A stretch of DNA of 59,262 nucleotides from Candidatus Daviesbacteria bacterium GW2011_GWA1_41_61 (GTDB lineage: Bacteria; Patescibacteriota; Microgenomatia; Daviesbacterales; UBA10151). The stretch lies in the NCBI GenBank assembly GCA_000997385.1, contig LCBT01000005.1:1-59262 (forward strand). Reading direction: 5' to 3'. Numbering within the stretch: the stretch's first letter is position 1; the number at the start of each line of letters is the position of its first letter. Shown in pieces: positions 5,393 through 24,084 of this stretch. A model generated the notes under the pieces. The model made no database searches. It worked only from the letters and a program-made list of their open reading frames with translations, and was not told the origin of the DNA. The position numbers and the translations under genes were made by a program.

Positions 5393-5467
5393 GCCGGGGT
5401 AACTCAGTGGTAGAGTAGCTGTTTTGTAAACAGCAAGTCGCGGGTTCGAATCCCGCCTCCGGCTCCA
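5393..5467 (+). tRNA. tRNA-Thr(TGT), attachment site of element 1
   Basis: Cloverleaf: acceptor GCCGGGG/CTCCGGC, anticodon arm GCTGT-TTTGTAA-ACAGC, T arm GCGGG-TTCGAAT-CCCGC, CCA encoded. Confidence 0.93.
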
Positions 5468-7050
5468 AAGTGGATTGAAGGGTCGTATTCTGCCTGATTA
5501 GATTGATGTGACGGCCCTTTCTTTAGTCCGACCAAACCGTTTTCTTCAGAAAGCTCATTTTGCTTATTTCTAAGGAACATAAATACCGATTTAGCCTCTA
5601 GGTAAAGCTTTTTGTCTTTTAATTTCAAGTCCGACCCAAGTATTTGTAAAACCATCCTTTTAGTATAGTCGTCTCCGGTGTTAAATAATTCGAGAATATT
5701 CCCGGCAAACTCTAAGGTATTATCAATCATCTGCTCCCAGTAGGAAATTCTATCCGAATTAAGCTGCTCCTTAATATCTGCTTCTTCTTTTAGGATAGCC
5801 GCTTTTTTCTGTTTATACTCATCTTCAGAGTAGAGACCGTCAATTTTCATACTAAATAACTTTTCTTTACTACCATCAATTTCGTGTAATCTTTTAGTTA
5901 GAACTTCCTTATTTTTATGCTCAAATTCAAACTCATCTCGATTTCTTCTTTTGAGCACTTTCCTGACCCAATCAATAAACCTTGGGTTAAGTTCTAAATT
6001 ACTAATGAAAGTCCTAACCTGGCCTTCTAAATCATCAGCCGGTGTATAAGATCTTTGGGTACAGACACCTTTATTTTTCTTACATCTATACCAGAAATAC
6101 TCTCGTGACGTGCCATTTTTATATGTTTTAGTTTTTCTTTCCGAAGTAATAGTTGAGCTACATTCACCACATTTTATAAAGCCAGACAAAGGTAGTGTGC
6201 GTATTTCAGTTCTATCTATATACCGACCGCTAAACTTACCAGTAATGATTTTTTGAGCCTTATTGAATTCCTCCAAGGTGACCACTGGTTCTTGAATACC
6301 CTTGTGAACCTCACCTTGGAAATTAAAATATCCAGCATAAAATACGTTATGAAATAGACTAAATGAGGCAGTCCGAGATACTGGATTACCCCGCCTATCT
6401 CTTAAACCGAGCTTTGTAATTGCAGCTAAGGACTCATCAACAGTATATTGGCCAGTTAGTATCATCTGCCACCACCTCTTTACTAAATCAAACCTTTCTG
6501 GATCGTTAGTAACAGTTTTCTCTCCTTTAACCTCCCCAACATTGAGATAGCCAATTGGGGCTAGTCCTGGCTTGATTCCTTTAGCTACTTTGGATTCCAA
6601 GCCCCTTTTGACGTCTTTAGAGAGCTTTAGACTGAAGTCTGTGGACATACCAAACTCTATTAAGAGCATGAACCAGTTGGACAAATCATATTGAGTGTAG
6701 GGAGTAATAATCCTAAGACCTTTGTGCTGAACTAGGTCAATTATTTCGCTACCATCAATCATATTACGTGCGAGGCGGTTAGCATTCCAGCAAACGACAA
6801 CTTTAGCTTTACCAGCCTTAAGAAGATTGAGCATCCTGTAAAATTCAGTTCTAACTCCGGCTTTTCGACCGCTTTTTTCTTCTTTAAAGTGAGGTACTAT
6901 TAAATTAAGGCTATAATCCTTGATAAGTTTATTACATTCATTTACTTGGTCATTAAGGGATAGAACTTGACGCTTCTTATCTTCTTCGGATTTTCTACAG
7001 TAGGCTAGGGCAATATTACTCATATCATTTTCATTTTTATCTCTATTCAT
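5404..7050 (-). CDS. Large serine recombinase/integrase; C-terminus reads antisense through tRNA-Thr
   Basis: Resolvase domain (ALAYCRKSEEDKKRQVLSLNDQV, NRLARN), recombinase domain, zinc ribbon CGECSS...YRCKKNKGVC, coiled coil; C-terminal GGGIRTRDLLFTKQLLYH is tRNA antisense. Confidence 0.93.
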   Translation of the reverse strand: MNRDKNENDMSNIALAYCRKSEEDKKRQVLSLNDQVNECNKLIKDYSLNLIVPHFKEEKSGRKAGVRTEFYRMLNLLKAGKAKVVVCWNANRLARNMIDGSEIIDLVQHKGLRIITPYTQYDLSNWFMLLIEFGMSTDFSLKLSKDVKRGLESKVAKGIKPGLAPIGYLNVGEVKGEKTVTNDPERFDLVKRWWQMILTGQYTVDESLAAITKLGLRDRRGNPVSRTASFSLFHNVFYAGYFNFQGEVHKGIQEPVVTLEEFNKAQKIITGKFSGRYIDRTEIRTLPLSGFIKCGECSSTITSERKTKTYKNGTSREYFWYRCKKNKGVCTQRSYTPADDLEGQVRTFISNLELNPRFIDWVRKVLKRRNRDEFEFEHKNKEVLTKRLHEIDGSKEKLFSMKIDGLYSEDEYKQKKAAILKEEADIKEQLNSDRISYWEQMIDNTLEFAGNILELFNTGDDYTKRMVLQILGSDLKLKDKKLYLEAKSVFMFLRNKQNELSEENGLVGLKKGPSHQSNQAEYDPSIHFGAGGGIRTRDLLFTKQLLYH

Positions 7051-7325
7051 GTTGTACCATCTTCCAGCTCTTTTTTAAAGTCGGACTTCTTATTTTGTAT
7101 CTGTAGTTCAAATAATTGTATTAACCTTGAGCCTTGATCTCTGGCTACTTCATCGCTCAACTCAATCTGGTAAACTTCCTTAACCAACTTCTTGAATTCT
7201 TGAACTTCCTCCGGCTCCAAACAGGGATAAGTCTTATTTTTAGGAGCTCTAAATGTGGCATCCTGGCTGCTACAGACCTCACAAGGGCATTCACCAGATT
7301 CCACCATCTCGTCAACTGTGATCAT
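7047..7325 (-). CDS. Hypothetical protein with Cys cluster
   Basis: ORF overlapping neighbours by 4 nt; CPCEVC motif. Confidence 0.7.
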   Translation of the reverse strand: MITVDEMVESGECPCEVCSSQDATFRAPKNKTYPCLEPEEVQEFKKLVKEVYQIELSDEVARDQGSRLIQLFELQIQNKKSDFKKELEDGTT

Positions 7326-8785
7326 GCCTTACCTCTTTCAGATTCATTAGCCCAACGAGTTCCTTCGCCAAATATTTCTTTACCTAAATCCAGTGACACT
7401 TGTGACTCATGTGACTCTGTTTCTGGTATACCGCTGTCTACTGAAGGGGCTGCTTTATCTGTGCTAGGTATATCTGTTTCAGTGTCAGAAGTGTCATTAG
7501 AGACATTGAAACCATAATTGAGCTTCAATTTCTCTATTAACTCTAGGTTGTAGTAAATTCCTCGTTTGTCTGCCGTCCTTTTCTTTTCAAACCCCAACCC
7601 CTTCAAAATTTTCCCAATGGTATCTTCTGGAAGAGCAAATTTATCTTCCTTACCTTTATTAAACTCTCTAGTAATAGTCTCTACGGATAGGAATCCACCA
7701 TCAACCTGGTTCTCTATGGCTATTACTATCTCAATGATTTTTGCCTCTAGTGTATCTGTAGCATCATCTTTTTTTCGTGACTCAACTGTTTTTAGAAACT
7801 TAAAAAACGATTCTTTTTTGTTGGGGAAAAAGGTAAGCACAATCTTATGAAGGGAGCTTACAATGTCTCCGAGCCTACCTGAAGCTGGTTTGTCCGCCTC
7901 CATTAGTTCATCTTTGTAATGTAAGATCCTAAAAGCTGCGAGCTTACATTTAAGATCAAAGGCACTCTCTGATACAACCGGATTATTAAACCTCCGGCTT
8001 GTTGGTTTCATATCAATTGAGATAGAGCGCGATTCTAAAATGTCATCAACTGGCCTATTAGTAGCAATAATGGTTGGTCCGAAAAGATTAAAAGTTTTAG
8101 TATCTCTAAAAGCTCCTTTTTCAGGCCATAAAGTTCTTGAGGATACAGATCCTTTTTCAAACCTTGCTAAAATAAGATCATCACAATTAGCGCGTTCAAA
8201 CTTTTTAGGAGCATTTTTAACATCAAACCCCAAAGCTGCTTGATGATCGTTACCCCATCTAATTATATCGGCCTCTCTAACAGTTTCTGTCCAAACTCCA
8301 CGCCTGGATACAAAGATTAAACCCTTCCCAGTTCTTGACTTACCACGTTCCTTAACTGCATATAGATACAGAATAGGTGAAAAGTGTATCTTGTCGATTA
8401 GATAGGTGTGAATATCCCATAAAACCAAAAGATCATAGTAAACTTCGTGTGGAAGCTCCGAGATGTTTTGATGGTAGGCAATAAGCTCCTCATATAAATC
8501 TAAAGCATGATGAGGGTTCTCCCTATATTCTTCTAAATATCCCAAAACCTTCTCAGCATCAGCAATTAAATATGGTATCGAGTTAAGAGGTGGCGGTACG
8601 AAGAGTTCATCATTATGTTTTACTGAATCTATCAATTCTAAATTTTCTGTGAGGTAAACTAGCTTTCCTTTACTACTTAAAACATCAATAGTGTTTGGAG
8701 CATCCAGGGAGTATGTTATTTTGTCTTCTTTATTGCTATCTTTTTTGGTTTTTATCTTTTCGTCAATATCGTCAAAATTATCCAT
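7322..8785 (-). CDS. P-loop ATPase/helicase-like protein paired with prim-pol
   Basis: Walker A-like GKSRTGKGLIF; follows prim-pol gene with overlapping ends. Confidence 0.6.
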   Translation of the reverse strand: MDNFDDIDEKIKTKKDSNKEDKITYSLDAPNTIDVLSSKGKLVYLTENLELIDSVKHNDELFVPPPLNSIPYLIADAEKVLGYLEEYRENPHHALDLYEELIAYHQNISELPHEVYYDLLVLWDIHTYLIDKIHFSPILYLYAVKERGKSRTGKGLIFVSRRGVWTETVREADIIRWGNDHQAALGFDVKNAPKKFERANCDDLILARFEKGSVSSRTLWPEKGAFRDTKTFNLFGPTIIATNRPVDDILESRSISIDMKPTSRRFNNPVVSESAFDLKCKLAAFRILHYKDELMEADKPASGRLGDIVSSLHKIVLTFFPNKKESFFKFLKTVESRKKDDATDTLEAKIIEIVIAIENQVDGGFLSVETITREFNKGKEDKFALPEDTIGKILKGLGFEKKRTADKRGIYYNLELIEKLKLNYGFNVSNDTSDTETDIPSTDKAAPSVDSGIPETESHESQVSLDLGKEIFGEGTRWANESERGKA

Positions 8786-9527
8786 TTTTTGTCCTTTCCC
8801 TGGTCAGGAAATTGACTGCACTTTCAAATTTCTGATTGACTTCTTTAGTTACTAGTGGAGGCTGGAAGGTGGAGTTTATAAAGAGCAGGAACTGATAGAC
8901 TAATTTTGATGGGATACCACGAGCCAGTAGGCTACAAGCAGCTCTGTAGAGATTAATATCTCTAGCTCCTTCTGTTTGTCCTAGAATTGACTTCCAATCC
9001 AAATTAGTTGAACCTTTGTTTGTACCCTGAAGATCAATTATCCATTGAGGCATTTCCTGAAATTCATTAACAAATGGTGGAGTGATCCAAATATATTTAT
9101 TGCCTGAGGCGTGAACTGATGGTGGAAGGATTACATAACCGCCATCAGATTTTAGATCAAATCCTTCTTTAACCCCATTCTGGCTATGAATATTAGGGCT
9201 ATATTTATAGAAATGATGTGAACCACCGCCCCCAGTTTGTGATTTAACTGTATCTGTTAGATTATTGGTATTACCACCATGTCTTGGATCAATATCAATC
9301 ACACTAACACCAGATAATTTGCCTGTCACAAGGCCAATATTTGCCCAGGGCCATTTAGTCCACCAATCCGTAACTTCTTCAATTGTAGGTAGTCTTTTTT
9401 GGTATTCAAGCCAAGATTCTAGGCACGGTTTTTTAGAAGATGGACTGATAGGAATTATTGACCAACCTTTTGAAAGGTATTTAAGTGCTGCATTTAATAA
9501 ATCTTTATTTTTATCTTGATTATTCAT
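8778..9527 (-). CDS. Bifunctional DNA primase/polymerase (prim-pol) N-terminal domain protein
   Basis: GWSIIPISPSSKKP, NIGLVTGKLSGVSVIDIDPRHGG, TGGGGSHHFY, GFDLKSDGGYVILPPSVHASGNKYIW. Confidence 0.87.
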   Translation of the reverse strand: MNNQDKNKDLLNAALKYLSKGWSIIPISPSSKKPCLESWLEYQKRLPTIEEVTDWWTKWPWANIGLVTGKLSGVSVIDIDPRHGGNTNNLTDTVKSQTGGGGSHHFYKYSPNIHSQNGVKEGFDLKSDGGYVILPPSVHASGNKYIWITPPFVNEFQEMPQWIIDLQGTNKGSTNLDWKSILGQTEGARDINLYRAACSLLARGIPSKLVYQFLLFINSTFQPPLVTKEVNQKFESAVNFLTRERTKNG

Positions 9528-9529
9528 AT

Positions 9530-9781
9530 TTAACCTCCATAAATTCTACTTTTTAAGAACCTAATTGCCTCCCAAAAAGCATTGGGTTCTGTGCGTAAAC
9601 TCTTTTTCCAGAAATCTTGGATGACTTGATCTAAACCAGGGTTATTAGAACGATCAAATATAAAAACTGACTTTCCGTCTGGGTTTTTAACAACGGAATC
9701 AAGGGAAATTCCAGAGCAAATAATTGCACCAGCTAGGGGTAAACTTGACGTTTCAAATAATGAAGTAACATCTTTTCTCAT
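9530..9781 (-). CDS. Small protein, DUF5659-like
   Basis: Resembles 19561-19791: central VFIFDR and C-terminal AIRFLKSRIYGG versus AIRTLKDRIFASK. Confidence 0.5.
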   Translation of the reverse strand: MRKDVTSLFETSSLPLAGAIICSGISLDSVVKNPDGKSVFIFDRSNNPGLDQVIQDFWKKSLRTEPNAFWEAIRFLKSRIYGG

Positions 9782-9917
9782 ATCATTTAATTTTTATAAT
9801 CCGTTACATTGGCTAAGAGCCAAATTCGATATATTTCTAGTTAAATTTTACTAAAGGGATTGTGTATTGTATGTGGCAATGTGGGTATCTATGAAAGTGC
9901 TACACTTTGAATTGATA

Positions 9918-10655
9918 TTATTTCTCCCAGCCTAGATTTCTTAAAATTGAAGAAATATTTGAATACTTTCTATCAATCTCTCTATCAGCTTCTGCATATG
10001 TAATACCAAATTCAGCGGAAATTTTCTCGTAGGTCTTTTTAGAAGTAAGCCCAGTAATTCTTTTGTAACGATATATAGATGCAAAAATCTCAACTTCTCT
10101 CATAGATATATCCTTAATAGTTTCAGGCGCTGGGTCTGATTTTTCGTAATCCTTCATTGCTTCCTCGATTTCGTCCCACTTATCTGATATATACTTGCGT
10201 AGCTCACTTTTGCTGAGCCGTTTGTTAAGTTGAATGATGGGAAGAGCTGGGGTAATGCCTTTGTCTACCAAAGCACGTTTATTTCCTTCATACCATGAAT
10301 CCCAAAACATTTTGTCCTGCAGCCTAGTTGGTGGTGGGACAAGTTTATCATAGTGAAGAAAGCTTCTATTAAGCTGATGTCGTATTCCAAAAATTTGTAT
10401 AGGTTGGTAAACAGAGAAGATTTTCCCAAATTGAATGTATTCCTCCAGTGGGCGGACAAATTTAATGGGAATATGATATTTTTGAAGTAGTGGGATTAAG
10501 GTATCAGGAAATAGTTGTATCTTTTTAGCTTCAAACTGCTTTTTTAAGTCTTCAATTTCGGCTGCGAAATCTTCATAAAATTCTAACAAAAGTAGGTATT
10601 TACGTTCATCCTCACTCAGGTATTTTGCTGCATCGTCACTTATTTTAATCCTCAT
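9918..10655 (-). CDS. Hypothetical protein, possible DNA-binding C-terminus
   Basis: 245-aa ORF; HTH-like TSKKTYEKISAEFGITYAEADREIDRKYSNI. Confidence 0.65.
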   Translation of the reverse strand: MRIKISDDAAKYLSEDERKYLLLLEFYEDFAAEIEDLKKQFEAKKIQLFPDTLIPLLQKYHIPIKFVRPLEEYIQFGKIFSVYQPIQIFGIRHQLNRSFLHYDKLVPPPTRLQDKMFWDSWYEGNKRALVDKGITPALPIIQLNKRLSKSELRKYISDKWDEIEEAMKDYEKSDPAPETIKDISMREVEIFASIYRYKRITGLTSKKTYEKISAEFGITYAEADREIDRKYSNISSILRNLGWEK

Positions 10656-10732
10656 TTTTATATTAATTTATGGCTAATTATACTCTTTATTAGGGTGGTG
10701 GAAAACTCTTAAATTAGCTTCAAAAATGCTAA

Positions 10733-11479
10733 TTACTGGTATTTAAACTGGAAAGGTTGAACGAGAGGTTCTGAGAAAGGAATAGTTATGCTTACAGCAG
10801 GTACAGATAAGGAAACGAAATCCGTCTCAGCGCAAACCACTGTCTCAGACGAAGGTTCCCACCGAAGTATACTAGTTATGTCTCTTTCGCTTGGAGTCTC
10901 AGTCGGGGAGGTAGTGTAGTAATCTCCGAATTTAGAAGATTGAACATAATCAGACTTAGGCGTAAGATATGGCGTACCGGTACAGTCAGAAGTAGTGAAC
11001 CCGAGACTTGCTTTTGCAACTTCCCAGTGTTGAATATCTATAAATTTGTTGATACTGGGGACAAAGATTGTATTATTACCTTCCGATCCTTTATCTACTA
11101 AAATCCCCAGTTCGTTATTATGGGCATCAAGGACCATTATTGATTTAGACGATTGTACAGGGATATTCTCTAGCTTGTTATTTAAATCGATAATCTCTGC
11201 TGTCTGAGTTGCTACAATTGACTCTAAGTCTCTAACTTTATCATTCGTAGCTAATAAACCTTGGTCTAGTTCTGCTACTTTATCAAACAGATAGCAATTA
11301 ATAGCGTCTGATCTAGATACATTTCTTCTTAAACAATTACGCTGATAATATTCAGTCGCTTTCTGTAAAAATGTACTACTTACTGCTAAGACTGTGGGGC
11401 TCAAAACTACTAATACAAACAATGGTAGTAAAAATAGAGGTAGAATCTTAATTTTAATTCTCATTATATCTGCTTTCAA
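10733..11479 (-). CDS. Secreted/anchored coiled-coil protein
   Basis: N-terminal hydrophobic signal, heptad-rich segment. Confidence 0.65.
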   Translation of the reverse strand: MKADIMRIKIKILPLFLLPLFVLVVLSPTVLAVSSTFLQKATEYYQRNCLRRNVSRSDAINCYLFDKVAELDQGLLATNDKVRDLESIVATQTAEIIDLNNKLENIPVQSSKSIMVLDAHNNELGILVDKGSEGNNTIFVPSINKFIDIQHWEVAKASLGFTTSDCTGTPYLTPKSDYVQSSKFGDYYTTSPTETPSERDITSILRWEPSSETVVCAETDFVSLSVPAVSITIPFSEPLVQPFQFKYQ

Positions 11480-11611
11480 AAATTTTACTTTTCAGAAAGC
11501 CTTAATCTGATCAACATCATAAAACTTTTTGCTATAGGGGACAAGTAGTTTTTATGTACATCTATATTATCTCAAGCCTTACCTGATCTAAATTCCTATC
11601 TGCTTTTTTAA

Positions 11612-12307
11612 TTAAACTTTTGTTTCATCATTACTTACAGGTATAGGGGGAGCAAAAAGCTCAGGAAGTGCGGGGAAATCATAGTTTTCTTCAGAGCATT
11701 TGGATGATGGAACCTGTACAAAACTGTATATCCAGTCCGATCTTCCTTTTTCTCTTTCCCAAACACTATCATATTTATCTTCTGCTTCCTTGCTTCTTGC
11801 AACTGCTTCCATTACCCTATTGCTTAACTCTCGTTGTTCATCAGGATCTTTTTCTTTGTATTCTGTAGACAAAAAGACTGAAGACTCATAATCTGCCTTA
11901 TACATTTCATATTGATATTGACCCGCCTCCTTGATATATGAATGTATTAATAAGTTAAAGGCTTTGCTATCTAAATATATTCTTTGTTTATCAAGCCACA
12001 ACTTTTCTTCTTTTTGGTAAACATCACTTGCTTGCATGTATTTATCCAGAGCAGCATGATATTCTTCCGCAGTAGCTGTATCACTTCCTGCTTTTAATAT
12101 TAAATTGTATTGATCCAAATATTTATTTTTTCTATCAATTATTAAAGGATTAATTTTTATACAATGCTCATCTGCTAAATAGGATCCCTCGTTAATCAAT
12201 TGTTGATATTTGTATATATAACCTACAAATAACCCAAGACCTAATATTATTGAAATAATGAGAAGCTTCTTTTTAATAGCTTTATTCATTTTCAGGAAGT
12301 AGCTCAT
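11612..12307 (-). CDS. Single-pass membrane protein, hypothetical
   Basis: N-terminal TM KKKLLIISIILGLGLFVGYIY. Confidence 0.65.
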   Translation of the reverse strand: MSYFLKMNKAIKKKLLIISIILGLGLFVGYIYKYQQLINEGSYLADEHCIKINPLIIDRKNKYLDQYNLILKAGSDTATAEEYHAALDKYMQASDVYQKEEKLWLDKQRIYLDSKAFNLLIHSYIKEAGQYQYEMYKADYESSVFLSTEYKEKDPDEQRELSNRVMEAVARSKEAEDKYDSVWEREKGRSDWIYSFVQVPSSKCSEENYDFPALPELFAPPIPVSNDETKV

Positions 12308-12956
12308 ATAATGCAGGAGTAATTACAACAAATATATGGCCAGGTATTCCAAACACAGGTGTTTTATCATAGGTATACGAAACCTCAACATTTTTCCCAT
12401 TAATTATTTTTTGGTGTCGTGTTCCTGAGGTACTCTCAAATTCCAAAGATTGTTCTATAAACCAACTTGTAATATCTTTGTCTACAGTGTCCGTCAGTTG
12501 GAACATTTGCCGTAACGTATCATTATTTTTTTCTCCATCAGCATAAAGATCGCCAGTAAAACTGATTTGCGTTAAATTCTTCCCCGGCTGCCCTATTAGA
12601 TAAACTGTGACCGTATCAACCTCTCCTCTTTCTACATCCTGACTTTTATCTTCAGGATAATATTTATCAATATCCGAATTAAAAACTACACCTATATTTT
12701 GGGACTGTAACCTATCCTTTAAGGATTGCATTGTAATGCTTAAATCTAGAGTTTTAGTAGCGACTTGAGGTGAAGATAGAGGAGTCTGAGCCTGAGTATC
12801 GATCTGCTGTAAGATAGTTGAGCTTTGAGGTGAAGGTTCAGATCTCACTAAATAATATACTCCAATTATGATCGCGAATATAATAATGACTAATATAGGA
12901 ACAATTCTTTTTTGATCGCGAAACGTTTTTCTATTCATTTTATTTACTTCTTCCAT
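12282..12956 (-). CDS. Single-pass membrane protein, hypothetical
   Basis: N-terminal TM RIVPILVIIIFAIIIGVYYLV; overlaps next gene. Confidence 0.65.
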   Translation of the reverse strand: MEEVNKMNRKTFRDQKRIVPILVIIIFAIIIGVYYLVRSEPSPQSSTILQQIDTQAQTPLSSPQVATKTLDLSITMQSLKDRLQSQNIGVVFNSDIDKYYPEDKSQDVERGEVDTVTVYLIGQPGKNLTQISFTGDLYADGEKNNDTLRQMFQLTDTVDKDITSWFIEQSLEFESTSGTRHQKIINGKNVEVSYTYDKTPVFGIPGHIFVVITPALYELLPENE

Positions 12957-12977
12957 ATCATTTATTTTCCCCCTTTT

Positions 12978-13610
12978 CTATAAGCTAGAACAGAATGGTT
13001 TACTACAAAAATTATTAGGTTTAGAACAATACTGATATTTTCTTCCCTCTAATAAACAATTGTTATATTCTCCAAGTTCAGTATTGTATTTACCTATACA
13101 AGAATTATATTCAGTCATTTCCTTCTGACATTCCTGTTGTTCTTCCGACCTTCTTCGTTGTCTATCTTGTTCAAAGGTATCAGTTGTTGTACCTGTTTGT
13201 TGCTCATAATAGCTATTTTGAATTGGCTGTCCTTCTTGTGCCATGATTTTTTGCACACGAGCTTCTTGGTCAGCCATAAGGGCTGGATCTGCATCTAACT
13301 TGAACGCCATTAACCTGATGAATTCCACATTAGTCATATCTACATTTCCCAATCTCTTTTTTGCCTCTATCAATACATCTTTAGAGGTTCTGGCAACTCC
13401 AAAAGCGACTATTTTTAAGGCTTTTCCAGATGGTTGGTTTTGGTTATCTGTAGGCACATTTGTATCTGGGCTGACAATAGACTCATTAACTTCAGATTTA
13501 GTAGGAACCACACCACTAGACATATCTTCCGAGGATTCACTATATCCTCCAAGATATATACCAGTGAGAACAACTACTCCTATAATTACCAAAACTGGAG
13601 TCATTTTCAT
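12978..13610 (-). CDS. Membrane-anchored protein with Cys-rich C-terminus
   Basis: N-terminal TM, terminal CQKEMTEYNSCIGKYNTELGEYNNCLLEGRKYQYCSKPNNFCSKPFC. Confidence 0.65.
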   Translation of the reverse strand: MKMTPVLVIIGVVVLTGIYLGGYSESSEDMSSGVVPTKSEVNESIVSPDTNVPTDNQNQPSGKALKIVAFGVARTSKDVLIEAKKRLGNVDMTNVEFIRLMAFKLDADPALMADQEARVQKIMAQEGQPIQNSYYEQQTGTTTDTFEQDRQRRRSEEQQECQKEMTEYNSCIGKYNTELGEYNNCLLEGRKYQYCSKPNNFCSKPFCSSL

Positions 13611-13940
13611 TTAATTTCCTTTCATAAGGTCTGTAATATCCTTTTTAAGCTGTGTTAATTGTTCTTCAGTGAGATTATCTTCTGTCTCTTTTATTATATC
13701 CTGAGTTTCTTCATCCTTAACTTTAAGTTTCCTTTGAAGACTGATTAACTTAACCTCGTTACTGACATGAAATACTCTAATTAATTTTCTAAGAAAGTTT
13801 ACAGCTACATCAATCTTAAAGACGATTAACAGATAGGCATAAATTAAGAAGATTTTTAGATCCCAGTTAATTAGAATAATTGCGATTATTAACTCTAAAA
13901 GATAGTTCCACCATGATTTTTTTAAAATTTCGCCAAACAT
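13611..13940 (-). CDS. Small membrane protein
   Basis: Hydrophobic LLELIIAIILINWDLKIFLIYAYLLIVFK; directly abuts the next gene. Confidence 0.6.
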   Translation of the reverse strand: MFGEILKKSWWNYLLELIIAIILINWDLKIFLIYAYLLIVFKIDVAVNFLRKLIRVFHVSNEVKLISLQRKLKVKDEETQDIIKETEDNLTEEQLTQLKKDITDLMKGN

Positions 13941-14043
13941 AATTATATTTCCATCTCTAAATCTAATTGCATTCTATACCTGATCAATAAAGATGACAAG
14001 GAGTCTGTCGAGATGATACTGATGGTCTCTTATAGTGTGAGTT

Positions 14044-14271
14044 ATGGGAAAAGCTATTACTCACAAACAAGTATTAGAGAAATTTGGACAGAAGATGCAG
14101 AAGGTGCGTCAATCCTCTGGGGTAACACAAGAAGAATTAGCGGCTAGGTTAGGGATGCATAGAACCTATATTGGCCTTATAGAACGAGGCGAGAGAAACC
14201 CAACTATAAGAACTTTATATAAGATTGCAAAAGCCCTTAAAGTTCCAGCTTCAGATTTGCTACCTTTTTAA
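14044..14271 (+). CDS. XRE-family HTH transcriptional regulator
   Basis: RQSSGVTQEELAARLGMHRTYIGLIERGERNPTIRTLYKIAKAL. Confidence 0.93.
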   Translation: MGKAITHKQVLEKFGQKMQKVRQSSGVTQEELAARLGMHRTYIGLIERGERNPTIRTLYKIAKALKVPASDLLPF

Positions 14272-14961
14272 CTAATAGGAACCCCCAGGTATTAATGTTG
14301 GTATTTGTTCTCGTTTTACCCTGATTCGTTTGACTGTTGAGGCACTTACCCTCTTCATACTCCTATGTGTCCTTAAAACAACCCCAAACTTGCTTAGAGC
14401 CTTGCATTCTTGGTCAATATTAATCTTGTATGATTTAACTTCTGGCCATAACTGTGCAACTATGTAGTTATTTTGGAGTGGATCTATATTCCCTACTATC
14501 CAAACCGAAGCGATATTAGGCTTTACAGCCTCAATTTGTTTATTTAAATCGCTTAAGTCCTTTATTGCTTCATCTCTGTTAATCAATCCTACTAAACTTG
14601 TCTTCGGATCATAGACCTTATCTTTTAACTTACGTTTGACAGTATCTGCAATACTTTCTTTTTTGCGATCTTCTATCCGGTATACCTCAACTAACTGAAT
14701 GTTTTTAACTCCAACCTGTTTACTGTTAAGAGACATCGTAGCAGCTAATATATCAGGTGGATCTTCATCTGGCACCTGCAACCACCACATTCTGCCCTCG
14801 TAATGTTTCACACCCAATAAAGCTATTCCTGTTATATAAGCTTCAAGCCCCTTCTTTTTATTAAATGCTTTTTCAACCCCAATCTGTTGAATCAGTTGCT
14901 TGAAGTTATATATTGCGTAGCAAGGTGAGTACCAAATATTTTTTGTTATATCAATATCCAT
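14272..14961 (-). CDS. Hypothetical protein
   Basis: 229-aa ORF, no recognised family. Confidence 0.6.
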   Translation of the reverse strand: MDIDITKNIWYSPCYAIYNFKQLIQQIGVEKAFNKKKGLEAYITGIALLGVKHYEGRMWWLQVPDEDPPDILAATMSLNSKQVGVKNIQLVEVYRIEDRKKESIADTVKRKLKDKVYDPKTSLVGLINRDEAIKDLSDLNKQIEAVKPNIASVWIVGNIDPLQNNYIVAQLWPEVKSYKINIDQECKALSKFGVVLRTHRSMKRVSASTVKRIRVKREQIPTLIPGGSY

Positions 14962-15014
14962 AATTAAATTTTGGAAGTGAAGTATTTGAACACGCGCTAT
15001 ATAAGGGGATTATA

Positions 15015-15380
15015 TCAAAGGGTTTCAATCATACCTTTAAATCTTTGCTTTCTGTATTTTAGTTTTAGACAATTCCTACATCCCAAAATATTTTGTAACG
15101 GGTGTTTATAAAGCGTCCCTACCTTTATTTGGCATATCGGGCACAAGAACCAGAATCTATCGCCATTAAATCTGGTTTTAGAGGTGGTAAGGCTCACCTC
15201 AATCCCTAGAGCCTCAATTTTGGCTCGTAGAAGCCTTATTTTGAGCTCTTTCTTAACGCGGTCTACTAATTCATCGATATTGATTCTCATGGCGTTATCT
15301 GCCAACTGAGAATCTCCTAAATCGTATGGGTTTATTAAATTATTCATGGCTGTTTGCTTGTACCATTTGGTTTTGGCCAA
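15015..15380 (-). CDS. Zinc-ribbon protein
   Basis: CPICQIKVGTLYKHPLQNILGCRNC; overlaps upstream gene. Confidence 0.6.
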   Translation of the reverse strand: MAKTKWYKQTAMNNLINPYDLGDSQLADNAMRINIDELVDRVKKELKIRLLRAKIEALGIEVSLTTSKTRFNGDRFWFLCPICQIKVGTLYKHPLQNILGCRNCLKLKYRKQRFKGMIETL

Positions 15381-15930
15381 TAATAGCTGTGTCTGTTTTG
15401 ATATTTAATTGCATAGGTATTTGTTTCATGGCTTTTAGTGCCTGAATTGAGGTTAAATACTGCCTGTTTGCCCGATCCAGCTCCTTGCTCAAAAAGGCTA
15501 GGAATCTTATACCCATATCTGTAATTGAAGCCGGTGCTAAGTATCTATTAATCCGGCTTTGAATCTCTAAAGTTCGGATATAATTGACTGTGGCTAGTTC
15601 AGCCGTAGCTTTCTCGCTGGTAGTTTCACAAAGATACTCTTTTTGTAACTGCCTCATCATATCTACTCCAAAAGTTTTATAACTCTCTGATATAATTTTA
15701 GTCATCAGAATTCCGTTTTCGAACTCAAAAAGCGTTAATGCCTGAAATGCGTTATCTATATCGATTGTAGCTAATTTATTACTTTTATTATTTATAGACT
15801 CTTCATATACTTTTTGTAGAACAGTGTCTGGATCATTCCAAATTTTACATTTACTGAAAGCATCTCTAAGTTCCTCTGAAGTTTTTGTTTTAACAATCGT
15901 TTTACTGTTTATTTTAGGCTTAGTAGGCAT
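15340..15930 (-). CDS. Hypothetical protein (would lie directly downstream of the integrase in the excised circle)
   Basis: 196-aa ORF; its ATG overlaps the stop of the displaced integrase tail by about 11 nt. Confidence 0.65.
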   Translation of the reverse strand: MPTKPKINSKTIVKTKTSEELRDAFSKCKIWNDPDTVLQKVYEESINNKSNKLATIDIDNAFQALTLFEFENGILMTKIISESYKTFGVDMMRQLQKEYLCETTSEKATAELATVNYIRTLEIQSRINRYLAPASITDMGIRFLAFLSKELDRANRQYLTSIQALKAMKQIPMQLNIKTDTAIIGQNQMVQANSHE

Positions 15931-16051
15931 AACCAGCTTCCTTTAAGCTAGTAACGTTTATGTGGTTTCTAAGAAGTTCTAATTGTGCTGCTAGAGTTTT
16001 TGCTTCCTCTGAGGTATCATTTAGAAGGTTTTGGAGTCCGACTCGAATCCC
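15920..16051 (-). pseudogene. Displaced native C-terminal tail of the element 1 integrase
   Basis: In frame with the integrase through shared GGGATTCGA (G-I-R): VGLQNLLNDTSEEAKTLAAQLELLRNHINVTSLKEAGYAY*. Confidence 0.75.
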
Positions 16052-16080
16052 CTCTCCCGCTCTGGTAAAATATTAAACAT

Positions 16081-16152
16081 GCCGAAGTAGCTCAGTGGCA
16101 GAGCACGTTCTTGGTAAGAACGGGGTCACGGGTCCGATCCCCGTCTTCGGCT
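16081..16152 (+). tRNA. tRNA-Thr(GGT)
   Basis: Acceptor GCCGAAG/CTTCGGC, anticodon arm CGTTC-TTGGTAA-GAACG, T arm ACGGG-TCCGATC-CCCGT. Confidence 0.93.
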
Positions 16153-16201
16153 CAGGTTAAAACCTTGCATCTCTTCCCCACCTAATATATAATCCCAAGG
16201 T

Positions 16202-16580: not shown

Positions 16581-16654
16581 AGGGGCGTCGGTCAGTGGTA
16601 GGCCTGGAGTCTCCAAAACTCCTAACGAGGGTTCGATTCCTTCCGCCCCTGCCA
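16581..16654 (+). tRNA. tRNA-Trp(CCA), attachment site of element 2
   Basis: Acceptor AGGGGCG/CGCCCCT, anticodon arm GGAGT-CTCCAAA-ACTCC, T loop TTCGATT, discriminator G and CCA encoded. Confidence 0.92.
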
Positions 16655-18148
16655 ATTCTCACTTTCAGCATACTTGGCTACTATGCTGAATGGTAGTTTG
16701 AGGCTAAAATCAACCTTTTTATCCTTCAAAATAAGGTTCGAGACGACAAATCTCAGCAACTCCCTTTGTAACTCAGGTCTCGAACTGGCAAATAACTTCG
16801 GAGCCATATTGCAGAAGGTCAGAAATCCTTCTATTTCCTGCTTATATACCCTATCTGCAGTCTTGTGCTTCATTATTTCAGCATTTACGAGTTCGGTTTC
16901 CTTGTTGACCTCTGTTGATTTTGAATTGTAGGCTTCGTCTTTGATCTTTCCTTTGAGATATAAGTCCAACAGCTTTGAGGATTGCTCCTGTAGGTCTTTG
17001 TACTGACTGTTGAGAGCATCCAGCGAGTCTTGAAGGTATTCAGTTTCGTCTGCCAAGCTCACACTCATAATGTCTTTTATAGTTTTCAACTTTTTTAGAT
17101 CAAGCGAGGCTGCTTTGATTACCTTTGCTAATTGTTCTGTTATAACTTCCTCCCTCACATACTTCTGATGGCAGAATTGAGCCCCTCTGGGCTTGGTACA
17201 GTGATAATAAACATGACCCTTCTGCAATTCAGCAGTAACTCCGTTATGGCACTCACCACATTCCATAAGTCCAACAAATGAGAAATCGTGTTTATACCCT
17301 TTCTTCTTTTTCGGAGACAAGACCTCCTGCACTTTATCAAATAAGTCCTTTTCAATAATTGGTTCATGTTTTCCTGGTTTCACTTCGCCTTTCCATTCAA
17401 AAAATCCATAGTAAAAATGGGTGTGAAGAATCTTACCTATGGCTGACTTTCCAACTCGATTACCTTTTCGACTTCTGAAACCCTCATCAAAAAGCATCAA
17501 TCCGATTTTCCTTTCCGAGTATTCACCTGTAGCACAGAGCTCAAAGATTCTTTTGATAAAAGGTGCAACTACTGGATCAGGTACTGCTACATGGTCATCC
17601 AGCTTCGTTTTATAACCAATCGGAGGTATGTGGGGGTAGAAACCATCATCCACCAAAATATCATAAGCTTTTTTGACTTCATCAGAGAGATTGTTTAGAT
17701 AGAACCTGGCAAAACCATTTTGGATATCAAACTGTAGCTTTTGGAAACTCTTGGCGTTCTTGTTATAAACCAAAGATTCTTTGATGAAATGTATTTCTCT
17801 GCCTTCATTGTTCACCATATCCTCAATAATCACCCTATCTTTGAGATTGCCTCTCAAAAGTCTGTCCACTTTCTCACACAAGATTCCGAGGATGTTTTTG
17901 TTAGCCTGGATATAAGCCACCATTTCAGAAAACTTTTTTCGACCTTCTTTTTTTGCACTTTCATCAATATCAAACTCTTTGATTACTTCAAAATTATTTC
18001 GCTTGGCATAATCAAGGATTAGCTTCCTTTGGGCTTCAATGGAGACACCTTCTTCACGCTGGCGTTTACTGGAGACTCGATAATAAGCAACAAATTGATT
18101 TGCATTTTCCATATTCATCTTATCTGATTTTAGTAGATTAGTTGTCAT
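16622..18148 (-). CDS. Large serine recombinase/integrase; C-terminus ends antisense in tRNA-Trp
   Basis: FVAYYRVSSKRQREEGVSIEAQRKLILDYAKR, CEKVDRLLR, CGECHNGVTAE zinc ribbon; ends NWQGRKESNPR (tRNA antisense). Confidence 0.93.
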   Translation of the reverse strand: MTTNLLKSDKMNMENANQFVAYYRVSSKRQREEGVSIEAQRKLILDYAKRNNFEVIKEFDIDESAKKEGRKKFSEMVAYIQANKNILGILCEKVDRLLRGNLKDRVIIEDMVNNEGREIHFIKESLVYNKNAKSFQKLQFDIQNGFARFYLNNLSDEVKKAYDILVDDGFYPHIPPIGYKTKLDDHVAVPDPVVAPFIKRIFELCATGEYSERKIGLMLFDEGFRSRKGNRVGKSAIGKILHTHFYYGFFEWKGEVKPGKHEPIIEKDLFDKVQEVLSPKKKKGYKHDFSFVGLMECGECHNGVTAELQKGHVYYHCTKPRGAQFCHQKYVREEVITEQLAKVIKAASLDLKKLKTIKDIMSVSLADETEYLQDSLDALNSQYKDLQEQSSKLLDLYLKGKIKDEAYNSKSTEVNKETELVNAEIMKHKTADRVYKQEIEGFLTFCNMAPKLFASSRPELQRELLRFVVSNLILKDKKVDFSLKLPFSIVAKYAESENWQGRKESNPR

Positions 18149-18151
18149 AGT

Positions 18152-18691
18152 TCAAGGCGACTTCTTTATATCTCGAAACAAATCTTTTCTCATTGCTTTC
18201 CATGCATCAGACTTGACTAAATCACCATACTTTTTCCCTATCTCTTGGAGAATGTGCATCCAATAATTCGAATGCATCTCCTCATCCTTGAATACTTCAA
18301 AACGATCAAGATTCAGAGCTCCTTTTGCTTCCCTGTCGAGCTCTGCTATCTGTTCCTTGATTTTTTGTGTGCTTTCAAGCAGTTTGAAAGCTGAATCAGG
18401 ATCAAACTTCTCGGCTTCCACACCAAAAATCTGTCCAAACATATCGTTATAAAAAGTAATTGCGGTATCAGCTCGAATGATGATATAGCCTGAATACAGC
18501 ATTAGTTTTCGGAGGAATAAAGAAATAAGCTTATCAACTTCTTTCTTTGTCTCATTTGGCAGTTGCCTCCTCATCTCTTCAACCAAATCGAAATTACCTT
18601 GAGAAAACGCTTCTACAGCAGCCCTGAAAGCTTCATCAGCAGTCATATTTGCGAATGGTTCATTTAGATTCATTTTTGATTTTGTATGCAT
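18152..18691 (-). CDS. Hypothetical protein
   Basis: 179-aa ORF overlapping the next ORF. Confidence 0.6.
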   Translation of the reverse strand: MHTKSKMNLNEPFANMTADEAFRAAVEAFSQGNFDLVEEMRRQLPNETKKEVDKLISLFLRKLMLYSGYIIIRADTAITFYNDMFGQIFGVEAEKFDPDSAFKLLESTQKIKEQIAELDREAKGALNLDRFEVFKDEEMHSNYWMHILQEIGKKYGDLVKSDAWKAMRKDLFRDIKKSP

Positions 18692-19031
18692 ATTCCAATA
18701 CCTCCAATCTTTTTGCTAAATCACTCTGCTCAATAGTTTTGAGTGCGATACCCGATAAGTAACCTATTGCAGTTGCCAGTTTAGTGCTGGTTTTATTTCT
18801 TCGTAGGTCGTTTATGGTCTGTTCTATCAGTTTCAATACATCTTGCGTATTTGAGATTGCTATTTCATCATCCCTTCCATAGCTTCGTTTGGGGCTTTTA
18901 CCACCATCATGTACTGCTTGGGTTCGTTTCTCTCGCATCTTTTCAGAATGCCAGAAACAAAAGCTATCAGCTTGGATCGCCTTGGCTTTGCACCGCTTTT
19001 TATCTGTTTTTATAAAGTTGCATTGATTCAT
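18660..19031 (-). CDS. Small zinc-binding mobile-element protein
   Basis: MNQCNFIKTDKKRCKAKAIQADSFCFWHSEKMREKR (C-x8-C-x9-C-x2-H). Confidence 0.7.
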   Translation of the reverse strand: MNQCNFIKTDKKRCKAKAIQADSFCFWHSEKMREKRTQAVHDGGKSPKRSYGRDDEIAISNTQDVLKLIEQTINDLRRNKTSTKLATAIGYLSGIALKTIEQSDLAKRLEVLEYAYKIKNESK

Positions 19032-19290
19032 AGTTACATAAGCTAATGGGTGTACCTCCTAATAACTGCTTGTTGAGATAGCCCACCCTTCCTAAAGGTT
19101 TCATCCGCACATGTTTCCGTTTTCTCTCGGTATGCGTTAGCTCATTACCTGTTCCAAACTGCTCCTTTCGGTCAGAAGGGAGGCTCTCGTAATGCGTCAA
19201 GAATAACCCCCACATTTTTCTGTGTCTGCTTTATAGAGACCATTGTTTCCATAGCTCAATGGTAAGCAGTACACCCAAACAGTTAGTTAT

Positions 19291-19548
19291 TTAGCCTCGC
19301 TCCTGTTTATTCCCACGAGTTTTCAATAATTGAGATATTCTATCTTTATAAGCCAATCGTTTTTGGAATGCCTCTTTGGTGTAAATAGCCACCTCCCAAT
19401 CACCAAGTAATTGACTAAATTGCTTTATAAGTACAAAGCCATTGATTTCTTTTTCCTGGTACTGATTTTTTGGGTCAAAAAAGGACAGGAGAAATAATCG
19501 TCTAATCTTATTTAGCCAATTTTGGCTGTGAGTATGTTTCATTTTCAT
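19291..19548 (-). CDS. Hypothetical protein
   Basis: 85-aa ORF in the element gene string. Confidence 0.45.
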   Translation of the reverse strand: MKMKHTHSQNWLNKIRRLFLLSFFDPKNQYQEKEINGFVLIKQFSQLLGDWEVAIYTKEAFQKRLAYKDRISQLLKTRGNKQERG

Positions 19549-19560
19549 ATCAATTTTTTG

Positions 19561-19791
19561 TTATTTGCTGGCAAATATCCTGTCTTTCAAGGTACGAATT
19601 GCATCTGCATATTCCCTGGCTTTGACAGTCAAAGTATTAGACCAGTAGTCATTAGATATTTTGCGACAGGCTGTCTCACTTTCAAATACAAACCAATAGA
19701 AACCAGAATCAGCTTCCAATCCAGCAATTGTGAGATTCGCAGCTACCAAAGCAGATGCTTCGTAAATGTCTTTGGTTTTATACCTTTCCAT
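19561..19791 (-). CDS. Small protein, DUF5659-like
   Basis: YKTKDIYEASALVAA...FVFES...AIRTLKDRIFASK; similar to 9530-9781 in element 1. Confidence 0.55.
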   Translation of the reverse strand: MERYKTKDIYEASALVAANLTIAGLEADSGFYWFVFESETACRKISNDYWSNTLTVKAREYADAIRTLKDRIFASK

Positions 19792-19960
19792 AAGTCACAG
19801 CCTCCTTTTTCATTTTGTTGAGAACTTTTAGAAATCCAGACAAGTTGAAGTATGCTTCAAAAGCTTGAGAGTCAGTCAAAGGCTGCTTCGAAAGAAGTTC
19901 GAGTTCTTTTTGGAGATTTTCCTTACATCTTTGGCTCAATTTCCGATCCATATGAGCCAA
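19778..19960 (-). CDS. Hypothetical small protein
   Basis: 60-aa ORF overlapping 19561-19791. Confidence 0.4.
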   Translation of the reverse strand: MAHMDRKLSQRCKENLQKELELLSKQPLTDSQAFEAYFNLSGFLKVLNKMKKEAVTYGKV

Positions 19961-20000
19961 GTGTAGAAAAATAGGGGTTGAGAAACGAAGGAGAGAAAAA

Positions 20001-20618
20001 CTACCCTTTTTTATCCCTGGACATGTGGAGTTTCTTTTTCACTAACCTACATCGCTTACTGATTTCAGTCTCATCAAATGGTCTGTTTCCGTAAATCGTT
20101 TCTCCGATTTCTCGCATACTTTTTCCCTGGTTATAAAGTTCTATCATCCGAATATCTGTGTCAGAGATTTCAATGGGCTCAAAATCTTTCAACCATCTGG
20201 ACTGCAATTCTTTTATCAGATTCCAATCTGCTCTTTCTAAATCTTTGGCAGTAGTTTTTCTAAAAATCTGAATAAAAAGCTCCCATTTTTGTTTTTCGAA
20301 GTTGTATGAAAGTATTGGTTGTAAGGAAGAAATCGCTGGCAATTGCAATTTACCTGATTTCAGAAGATTGCGAATTGGCTCCTCCCAGTTCGCGGGCAAA
20401 TTACATTCATTTACAATTCGCTTCGGTTCATGAATAAGTAATCTTTCTTTGACACCAAAATTACGAATCACCATTTTCTTATCTTTAGTTACAATCACTT
20501 CTGATTCATATTTCTGAATCTTTTTCAGAACCTTTTTACACTCTGATAATAATCTCTCGCTGTGCTCAAGAATAAAATGGGTTTTTATTTCGGTAACTGA
20601 ACTTTTTGCATTTTTCAT
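20001..20618 (-). CDS. Hypothetical protein with possible HTH C-terminus
   Basis: IRMIELYNQGKSMREIGETIYGNRPFDETEISKRCRLVKKKL. Confidence 0.6.
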   Translation of the reverse strand: MKNAKSSVTEIKTHFILEHSERLLSECKKVLKKIQKYESEVIVTKDKKMVIRNFGVKERLLIHEPKRIVNECNLPANWEEPIRNLLKSGKLQLPAISSLQPILSYNFEKQKWELFIQIFRKTTAKDLERADWNLIKELQSRWLKDFEPIEISDTDIRMIELYNQGKSMREIGETIYGNRPFDETEISKRCRLVKKKLHMSRDKKG

Positions 20619-20720
20619 ATCAATCTACATCTGTGCTCAATTGTACCAAAAAGAAGCCATAAACCTATAACTTTGGTCTGGTAATTGAGTTATAATAAGG
20701 CTGAAATTGAGATGTAAATT

Positions 20721-22343
20721 ATGACGAACAACACAGATAAACAAAAGGACAATACTACTTCCTCATCTCCTGTTATTACCGAAACTAACCTTGCACAGTT
20801 AGCCAGAGGATTGCTTCTGATGAATATCCAAAAGGAAATGGATGAACCAGGATACACTCCAATTGATAGAATCACGAAAAACCGCAAAGTTGTACAAAGA
20901 CGACAAGAGTACTGTAGCGATATTGAGCGGGTAATTAGCGAGGCGAAGCTTACAATCCATCTCCAATTAGAAGTTCAGAATGAAGTAAAAGTTGGTGAAA
21001 AGTCATACCAACCAGAGGAAATAATAAGTTACTATAATGGGATTTTCCTTGACCAAGTTCATCAGTTGAAAGATAAGCTTTTCAGAATGATTGCACTCCT
21101 GCTTTTAGTACCTGAAACAGCACAAGACAATCAAAAGAAAGACCCTAAAAAGATCGAATATCAGCCATTTCTAACTAAAAACGAAGTGAAACTGAAAGAG
21201 ATTGGTATTTACGACTTACTATCTCAATGGGGCTCTGGCAATCTTGCAAAGGCATTAGATAAGAGAACCTATCATCATCATTTTGTAAGTACATTACGAC
21301 TAAATAGTGACTTCCAAAACATAAAAATGTCCAGGATGATGCTCAACCCACTAACTTCAAATCAGTTGAGCGAATATGGTAAGAAGAGAATGGCGGAGAT
21401 TGGTGAAGAATCTTATAGAAAATGGAGAAAAGAACTCGTAGATAAGCAGCAAGAAATAATCGGTGAAATAGAACAAAACATTGAAGAGATTTCAGAAAAA
21501 CTTATCACCCATTTCAAAGTCCCTGCAACTCCTGTTGAATCTGCACCCATAATCAGTAAGTACATGGAGTTTTTGGCCTCTATGGACATACATAATGAAG
21601 CAAGTATAACCAAGATTCCTACTGACCTGAAACCATTGATAGACGGATTCCTCGAAATTGCTGAAAAAGAAATTGGTGGCACACTTCATCTTCCGTATTC
21701 AGTTTATCTTGTTGGAAGCTGTGCACGAGGAGAGTATATTCCTGGCTGCTCTGACATAAACCTTTATTTTATTTTCGATGCTGATACAAATACGAATCTT
21801 TCAAAGAGCAATCCACTCGTAAATCTTGTTTTTCTATCAAAGAAACAATATCAGTCTAACGCCCACAAAAAGGATCGTTTCATTTGTTGGTCTGATGGTG
21901 TCCTACTCCATGGCAATGGTTTCAAAATGGGAAAGAAGGACTTTCCTAAACCAGGATCACTGCTGTGCCTACTCCTGAACAAGGGGTTTATCGAAAAGCT
22001 TGAGCAGATCAGGAAAGAAGTTGCAGCATTGAAGAATCAAGACCCTGATACTTTGAGGCAGTACAGTGTAAAAATGGTCAAAATTATGCTGGATTTTGAT
22101 TTTGGGGTTGCAATGTCTAATAAACCTTTCTACACCGCAAGCAGGAAAGGTAAAATCGCCTACACCAAGGAATCATGGCCGAATGAACGCAGAACAAACA
22201 CTTTTGAGCAGATTTACTATAAAGGAATCATTCGGCAAGAGGATTTTCCAATGGTAATTGACACCTTCCTTGAAAATGCGAAGAAAAACTATCAGAAACT
22301 ACTTGATGTTGAGGCAGATATTATCAAAAATCCAGCTCGATAA
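20721..22343 (+). CDS. Nucleotidyltransferase-fold protein
   Basis: YLVGSCARGEYIPGCSDINLYFIF matches GS-x-R-G-x-SD-x-(D) motif with the second acidic residue replaced by Asn. Confidence 0.65.
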   Translation: MTNNTDKQKDNTTSSSPVITETNLAQLARGLLLMNIQKEMDEPGYTPIDRITKNRKVVQRRQEYCSDIERVISEAKLTIHLQLEVQNEVKVGEKSYQPEEIISYYNGIFLDQVHQLKDKLFRMIALLLLVPETAQDNQKKDPKKIEYQPFLTKNEVKLKEIGIYDLLSQWGSGNLAKALDKRTYHHHFVSTLRLNSDFQNIKMSRMMLNPLTSNQLSEYGKKRMAEIGEESYRKWRKELVDKQQEIIGEIEQNIEEISEKLITHFKVPATPVESAPIISKYMEFLASMDIHNEASITKIPTDLKPLIDGFLEIAEKEIGGTLHLPYSVYLVGSCARGEYIPGCSDINLYFIFDADTNTNLSKSNPLVNLVFLSKKQYQSNAHKKDRFICWSDGVLLHGNGFKMGKKDFPKPGSLLCLLLNKGFIEKLEQIRKEVAALKNQDPDTLRQYSVKMVKIMLDFDFGVAMSNKPFYTASRKGKIAYTKESWPNERRTNTFEQIYYKGIIRQEDFPMVIDTFLENAKKNYQKLLDVEADIIKNPAR

Positions 22344-22345
22344 TC

Positions 22346-22861
22346 TTACTTTTTGACTCTGTAGTGTAATTCAACAATTCCATCGTCAATTTTCTCAACT
22401 TTCATCAATTCCAGCTTGAGCTCGAAATCAGAAAGACTGAATACTGGGATTCCTTCCCCTAAAATTGAGGGGTTCACATCAAATATAACCTCGTTTATCA
22501 AACCTCTTTTTGCAAACTCGCTGTTCAGGGTTGACCCGCCTGTAATAATTGCCTCGTTGAAACCTTCTGATTCGAGAGTTTCAAGAGCTTGTTCTGGTGA
22601 GTTTGCCAATGTAAAACCATTTTTGAGATCAAGATTAGAGGTTGAAACTATAATCTTCTTCACACCTTCAAGTTCAGTGAGATAATCTCCTTCCCACTTG
22701 ATAACTGCCTCATAGGTCTTTCTACCCCAAATAAAACAACCAATCCTTTTAGCCAAACTTACGAATTGTATCCAGTTTGTATGTGACAAGAAATCTTCAC
22801 TACCAGATTTAGAAGCAATAATTCCATTCGCTGAAACTGCCATAGTTAGAATAATTTTCAT
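22346..22861 (-). CDS. Dihydrofolate reductase / RibD C-terminal-like reductase
   Basis: MKIILTMAVSANGIIA, FIWGRKTYEAV, EAIITGGSTLNSEFAKRGLINEVIFDVNPSILGEGIPVF. Confidence 0.87.
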   Translation of the reverse strand: MKIILTMAVSANGIIASKSGSEDFLSHTNWIQFVSLAKRIGCFIWGRKTYEAVIKWEGDYLTELEGVKKIIVSTSNLDLKNGFTLANSPEQALETLESEGFNEAIITGGSTLNSEFAKRGLINEVIFDVNPSILGEGIPVFSLSDFELKLELMKVEKIDDGIVELHYRVKK

Positions 22862-23187
22862 AATTCTTCTTCTGAAATAAGAGGGTAAATGTCAAAAGCC
22901 ACTTCTTCATAAGGATGGACTTTCCTAATTGCTGCGATAACTGCCTTTGCTTTTTTTTGATCGCTAACACATTCAATCCGTTCTTCTTGTACTTGTTCAA
23001 ACTTACCAATTTCGCCAATAGCTGGATGAGCACCTTCCATTGGCTTATATCTGCCTATTCCATCAACTGAATAGCTACAGTGACTGTAAAGCCCAATTTT
23101 CCCTGCCCCTGCGCCTCCTATTGCCTGACGAACTATATCAGTATGAGTTTTAGGTACAAAAACAACAATTTTTACAGTTTTATTCAT
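22858..23187 (-). CDS. Stand-alone NIF3/YqfO insert-like (PII-like fold) protein
   Basis: FVPKTHTDIVRQAIGGAGAGKIGLYSHCSYSVDGIGRYKPMEGAHPAIGEIG...HPYEEVAFDIYPL. Confidence 0.78.
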   Translation of the reverse strand: MNKTVKIVVFVPKTHTDIVRQAIGGAGAGKIGLYSHCSYSVDGIGRYKPMEGAHPAIGEIGKFEQVQEERIECVSDQKKAKAVIAAIRKVHPYEEVAFDIYPLISEEEL

Positions 23188-23567
23188 TTTTCCTCTATCA
23201 CTTGCTTCAATTTCTCTAAAATATCGGTAGTGAATGGCTCCTGTAATTCACCATTTTCCATCCACTCGTAATACTCAAAGTTCGTAGAATTATCGCTAAT
23301 TGGAGTCAGTGTATATTTGACATGATAATTTCCGTCTTTTTGAACCATTGTAAAACTATTATTTTTCAATTCAGTAAGTGTATATTCATTCCAAGTGCCA
23401 TTTTGACTCTGATTCCTGTAGATTGATCCGACTTTTACAGGCCATTCACTCGTTTCTTCTTTCACTAATGAACCAATCCATAAAGGTGTATTTTTCGGAT
23501 TTAGGACAAAGGAGATTATTTCACTTACTGGCTTGTCAATCTGGATCGTCAATCGCTTATCTTTCAT
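23184..23567 (-). CDS. SRPBCC/START-like domain protein
   Basis: IDKPVSEIISFVLNPKNTPLWIGSLVKEE...GSIYRN, size and pattern of polyketide-cyclase-like family. Confidence 0.65.
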   Translation of the reverse strand: MKDKRLTIQIDKPVSEIISFVLNPKNTPLWIGSLVKEETSEWPVKVGSIYRNQSQNGTWNEYTLTELKNNSFTMVQKDGNYHVKYTLTPISDNSTNFEYYEWMENGELQEPFTTDILEKLKQVIEEK

Positions 23568-23636
23568 AATTCATATTGTATCAAAACCTAAAGACTTGAG
23601 CGAGACTTTATTGACAATAATTGATACAATCAAATC

Positions 23637-23978: not shown

Positions 23979-24084
23979 AAGCTAACGCTTGTGGAGGATT
24001 GAGAAATTGTTGAAGTCTCTGAAGATCAAACTGGCTGATTTTGTGCCAAATTGTTCGAAGGTCATGCACTAATGCCTGCCAATT
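23968..24084 (-). pseudogene. Displaced native C-terminal tail of the element 2 integrase
   Basis: In frame with the integrase through AATTGGCAG (N-W-Q): ALVHDLRTIWHKISQFDLQRLQQFLNPPQALAFRI*. Confidence 0.75.

Follow-up and report, generated by a model that had tools for sequence, protein, structure and literature searches.

Attachment sites that lie within a coding gene, so that integration alters the gene, are known from several mobile elements. In the SSV-type "suicidal" integrases of archaea, the attachment site is located inside the gene of a tyrosine recombinase that targets tRNA genes and is split upon integration into inactive N and C parts; such integrases have been stated to occur only in archaea (PMC8371274). 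In the integration-dependent immunity of mycobacteriophages, which encode a tyrosine-type integrase and also target a tRNA, it is the repressor gene that contains attP, and integration removes a C-terminal extension that is an ssrA-like degradation tag (PMC9262239). In pleolipovirus-like haloarchaeal proviruses, a separate small CDS, which starts near the int stop, spans attP in the circle, runs into the next gene and is split in the provirus, with a CxxC protein encoded downstream (PMC7911831). For serine integrases, the direction of which is normally set by a separate factor, engineered fusions to a directionality factor have shown that C-terminal additions can change the reaction direction (PMC5737554). 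Here we examined a 59,262-nt stretch of DNA (the window; contig LCBT01000005.1, assembly GCA_000997385.1) of a Patescibacteria-like genome, Candidatus Daviesbacteria bacterium GW2011_GWA1_41_61. It contains an integrative element (element 1) whose joining site lies inside its own serine integrase gene, so that insertion into a tRNA gene exchanges the C-terminus of the enzyme. The same arrangement recurs in related elements and in a provirus, and this points to a widespread switch, although its functional role remains an inference. The features of the locus are listed in the table.

Features of element 1 and its flanks (positions are those of the window)
Positions	Strand	Feature	Basis
5446-16051		Element 1, ~10.6 kb	Core repeat and empty site
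5393-5467	+	tRNA-Thr(TGT), target gene; its 3' end is supplied by the element (attL)	ARAGORN; joining of the flanks
5446-5454		attL core TCGAATCCC (antisense GGGATTCGA)	Only two copies in the window
5404-7050	-	Large serine recombinase (integrase, int), integrated form, 548 aa, ending in FGAGGGIRTRDLLFTKQLLYH; last ~20 residues read from antisense tRNA	ORF; Pfam; active-site motif
7047-7325	-	92-aa ORF overlapping the int start by 4 nt; int belongs to this minus-strand operon	ORF coordinates
8778-9527	-	Prim-Pol/PriCT primase of the element	Pfam
15015-15380	-	121-aa protein with paired CxxC motifs, third gene of the predicted int-tail operon	ORF; only a sub-threshold DUF4428 match
15340-15930	-	196-aa ORF (ATG at 15930), next gene after int in the circle	ORF; homologue with the same overlap geometry in L176
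15920-16051	-	Stranded native integrase tail GIRVGLQNLLNDTSEEAKTLAAQLELLRNHINVTSLKEAGYAY, stop at 15922-15920; predicted two helices (residues 2-10 and 15-38)	Reconstruction; homologues; coding constraint; AlphaFold2
16043-16051		attR core, followed outward by the displaced tRNA 3' end (16043-16062, 85% like the element's copy)	
16081-16153	+	tRNA-Thr(GGT), chromosomal neighbour beyond the right end	Relatives

When the two ends of element 1 are joined (junction GGAGTCCGACTCGAATCCCGCCTCCGGCTCC), the integrase frame continues beyond the core for 40 codons (GIR-VGLQNLLNDTSEEAKTLAAQLELLRNHINVTSLKEAGYAY, then a stop), giving a protein of 575 aa, while the other two frames close after 9-10 aa. The stop of this extended frame overlaps the ATG of the 196-aa ORF by 11 nt. 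The first-pass annotation, which had inferred from this geometry that attP lies inside int and that integration both replaces the C-terminus and uncouples int from the downstream genes, is correct in its observation and supported in its central inference. It placed the start of the antisense tRNA after GGGIR, but this start is at GAG of GAGGGIR because the element supplies its own tRNA 3' end. The joined chromosomal flanks fold as tRNA-Thr(TGT) with one acceptor mismatch and lie 18 nt from tRNA-Thr(GGT). In six relatives that show the empty site these two tRNA genes are adjacent, 5-146 nt apart, which confirms the right boundary.

By itself, however, the window would not establish this claim. 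The minus strand of the element is mostly coding, and 29% of random starts on it stay open for 40 codons, so that the open frame is weaker evidence than the perhaps 1 in 10 assumed in the first-pass annotation. The 9-nt core is also close to chance, the longest chance match on the other strand being 8 nt. Element 2, for which the same result had been claimed, does not clearly strengthen the case: it has a 10-nt match at 24084 and 34 codons open in frame, but no homologue, and its right end could not be fixed.

The comparative evidence carries the case. The closest relative, in G041 (a Daviesbacteria genome by its public record; integrase 69% identical, in tRNA-Gly), has GIRVGLQNFFNDTSEEAKLLAFQLQLLKDHL at its far end, in frame with its integrase, and a third element, in genome G011 (integrase 46-48% identical, in tRNA-Gly), has a further homologue. 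Between the window element and that of G041, DNA similarity is confined to int (1859 nt), this 91-nt block (79%, 6e-16) and one weak 70-nt match (2.5e-4), whereas the cargo does not match; in the circle, int and the tail are one module. Differences in the tail fall at codon positions 10/5/15, with dN 0.24 and dS 1.37, and over 23 distinct type-1 and 33 distinct type-2 tails the same bias holds (1188/779/2249 and 1698/877/2518), although these tails were found by protein profile and the set thus leans to intact frames. A DNA pattern that ignores frame found 22 sites in 17 of 374 genomes, most of which keep the tail frame, and none for the reversed control. The element in genome G006, whose integrase has decayed, keeps the tail at the opposite end, a homologue of the 196-aa ORF and the same 11-nt stop/ATG overlap.

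A second integrase subclade (in genomes G031, G242, G051 and G364) reads the tRNA-Gly core one base out of register with the first (GAG CGG GTG AAG), and its own family of tails follows that other register (GAG CTG GTA ACC). For G031, G242 and G364, int and tail lie 38-75 kb apart on one contig and strand, so pairing is likely but not proven; for G051 and G141 they lie on different contigs. An IMG/VR provirus of 58,954 bp has a type-2 tail at 214-315 and an integrase at 57312-58763 beside tRNA-Gly(CCC), with matching frames. An AbrB-like gene follows the tail in this provirus and in five relatives. The exact crossover could not be settled: by our reading of the sequences, GG pairs at two positions of the core fit the type-1 elements, but not all type-2 ones. 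Of 69 related integrases inspected, 50 have an antisense tRNA at the C-terminus and all 50 end inside or past it, 35 of them by at least 24 nt. A few stop only 10-15 nt into the tRNA, and in one of them (L049) the stop lies within the core, so there may be no swap there; the swap is common but not universal. No circular form or intact attP was found in the 374 genomes, none had int contiguous with a tail, and none of the tail-bearing ORFs we recovered contains an integrase. One contig ending at the core (G044:C18) showed no terminal overlap. Scans of viral contigs with the tailed integrase and with type-1 tails found no relative, a profile of tailed integrases found one remote fragment, and phage records held only distant serine integrases, of about 25% identity or less in the rows inspected.

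We consider it highly likely that attP of element 1 lies inside the 3' part of int, and that in the circle int reads through attP into the conserved tail of ~40 residues and is translationally coupled to the next gene. Recombination with the 3' end of tRNA-Thr(TGT) then replaces this tail by ~15 antisense-tRNA residues and leaves it, without a start codon, at the other end. Only the circle can therefore make the tailed enzyme. The integrated copy makes a shorter one that retains all catalytic and DNA-binding domains: Resolvase, Recombinase and Zn_ribbon_recom are all detected above the Pfam cut-off, and the active-site motif YCRKS has Y17, R19 and S21 invariant across three homologues. What is lost is a tail, predicted from a single sequence (mean pLDDT 85) to form two helices. 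The simplest functional reading is that the tailed form is suited to integration and that loss of the tail keeps the inserted state stable, but this step is only tentative, being slightly less likely than not in our judgment. If correct, this natural family would provide a one-component way to record and lock the integrated state, outside the tyrosine enzymes and outside archaea.

Other explanations should be considered. It is possible, although rather unlikely, that the swap is real but neutral, since targeting tRNA 3' ends with attP at the end of int makes some C-terminal change unavoidable, and the 3' end of the integrase gene indeed runs into the tRNA in very diverse members with unrelated C-termini. 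However, the tail itself is under purifying selection, so it does something in the state that encodes it, which is the circle. The main functional alternative, which we regard as somewhat more doubtful still, is that the tail is a destabilizing tag, such that the circle makes a short-lived integrase and integration removes the tag, as for the mycobacteriophage repressor (PMC9262239). Many tails end in small or hydrophobic residues (SFAIAS, SSFAFA, ATFAV, GYAY), and the tmRNA tag of the genome itself appears to end in QRVAYA, although this frame was picked by eye and is suggestive at best. On the other hand, the conserved part is a ~25-residue amphipathic helix rather than the last residues, the C-terminal ends vary between relatives and there is no LAA-type end. 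It is very unlikely that the 40 codons are due to chance or are a DNA-level part of the attachment site, never translated as integrase: att half-sites are conserved as DNA and integrase-less sites keep the tail, but there is protein-level homology in frame in relatives with 48-69% identical integrases, a third-position excess, frames that match in two registers, and conservation over 91 nt where a serine-integrase half-site spans ~25 bp (PMC3783163). That the tail belongs to an earlier element stacked at the same site, as arrays elsewhere might suggest, is equally improbable, since the window contains one tail, the core repeat and empty site bound the element, and tail and 196-aa ORF also sit together opposite the decayed integrase of G006.

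Surprisingly, tail-bearing sites also occur without an integrase, so the tail may have a role beyond ending int. They are found beside tRNA-Gly in L163, L166 and L171, with one or a few genes, and in arrays (L156, with five sites and one or two genes between neighbors, and L157, L159, L160 and L164). Genome G073, which is 99% complete, has several such sites and no integrase of this family. Tails inside the array of genome G230 still show dN well below dS (for example 0.05 against 1.28), though this may reflect constraint before insertion, and a ~60-nt left flank is shared by three different cassettes in two genomes. These sites may be relics of stacked elements or a cassette system. In the latter case, which is speculative and seems unlikely at present, the attachment site would be a portable recombination module: small cassettes carrying one or two genes and the tail would insert at tRNA genes and stack into arrays (five sites in 8 kb in G230), an integron-like system run by serine integrases in which an incoming cassette could supply the missing C-terminus to an integrated integrase and so re-arm it. 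The sites share half-sites and tails with the serine-integrase elements. The stranded tail is a marker that locates the far ends of elements and proviruses and reveals many small integrase-less cassettes in these poorly studied bacteria.

In the open-access literature that we searched, subscription papers not being included, no case of an attachment site within the gene of a serine integrase was found. With the SSV-type integrases the element shares the attachment site inside the integrase gene, the change of that gene upon integration, a tRNA target and a compact integration module. The parallel with these integrases drawn in the first-pass annotation holds for geometry only, since element 1 encodes a bacterial serine enzyme that keeps all its domains and exchanges a C-terminal tail. 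With integration-dependent immunity of mycobacteriophages it shares attP inside a coding gene, a tRNA target and the loss of a C-terminal extension, but attP is inside int and not inside a repressor gene. As in the haloarchaeal proviruses, a frame spans attP in the circle and runs into the next gene, and a CxxC protein is encoded downstream (here second after int), but the frame is that of int itself and the enzyme is a serine recombinase. Finally, in contrast to the man-made fusions of a serine integrase with a directionality factor, which favor attL x attR, the tail described here is natural, short and present in the circle.

Cassettes marked by the tail but lacking an integrase, each consisting of one to a few genes, occur next to tRNA genes at the loci L156 (contig C28 of genome G230), L157, L159, L160, L163, L164, L166, and L171, and some of these are organized in head-to-tail arrays. 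Their genes include a SerA-like gene, a DUF4325/HATPase pair, and a glycosyltransferase. A segment of ~60 nt is shared by the left flanks of three different cassettes and could represent a cassette end or a promoter. A 99%-complete genome (L164/G073) possesses several tail sites but no integrase of this family, a situation reminiscent of integrase-less integron arrays (CALINs).

Coordinates of the features discussed in this section
Sequence	Position	Feature
L156 (G230:C28)	1149, 2624, 4076, 4708, 5447	Tail-marked sites
L156	1069-1158 and 5393-5456	Shared ~60-nt segment
L164	10016-10073	Shared ~60-nt segment
Window	15015-15380	CxxC protein
Window	16622-24084	Element 2, up to its best right-end candidate
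Window	24084	Best right-end candidate of element 2, AATTGGCAGG
Window	24083-24793	236-aa ORF
Window	24838-25554	Region whose homologue lies near tRNA-Trp in relatives

For element 2 of the window, the integrase ends in antisense tRNA-Trp. The best candidate for its right end has an in-frame tail of 34 codons, with no homologues. In relatives the homologue of 24838-25554 is located near tRNA-Trp and, consequently, the boundary lies before 24838. The 236-aa ORF has no match beside tRNA-Trp in the empty-site relatives compared, and may be part of element 2 or a separate insertion.

The 5430-bp contig L176 (G006:C93) starts inside the tail and ends at the core; its integrase is reduced to the frameshifted C-terminal part, while the tail and the operon are kept. 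The 8274-bp contig L039 (G044:C18) ends exactly at the att core of its integrase but shows no terminal overlap, so that its circularity is unproven.

An AbrB-like gene follows the type-2 tail in a 59-kb provirus and five relatives (L245, i.e., IMGVR_UViG_3300038436_000160, and L218, L219, L220, L173, and L183), a temperate phage group of these bacteria. In element 1, the CxxC protein, which is the second after the tail in the circle, recalls the CxxC gene after the attP-spanning CDS of haloarchaeal proviruses.
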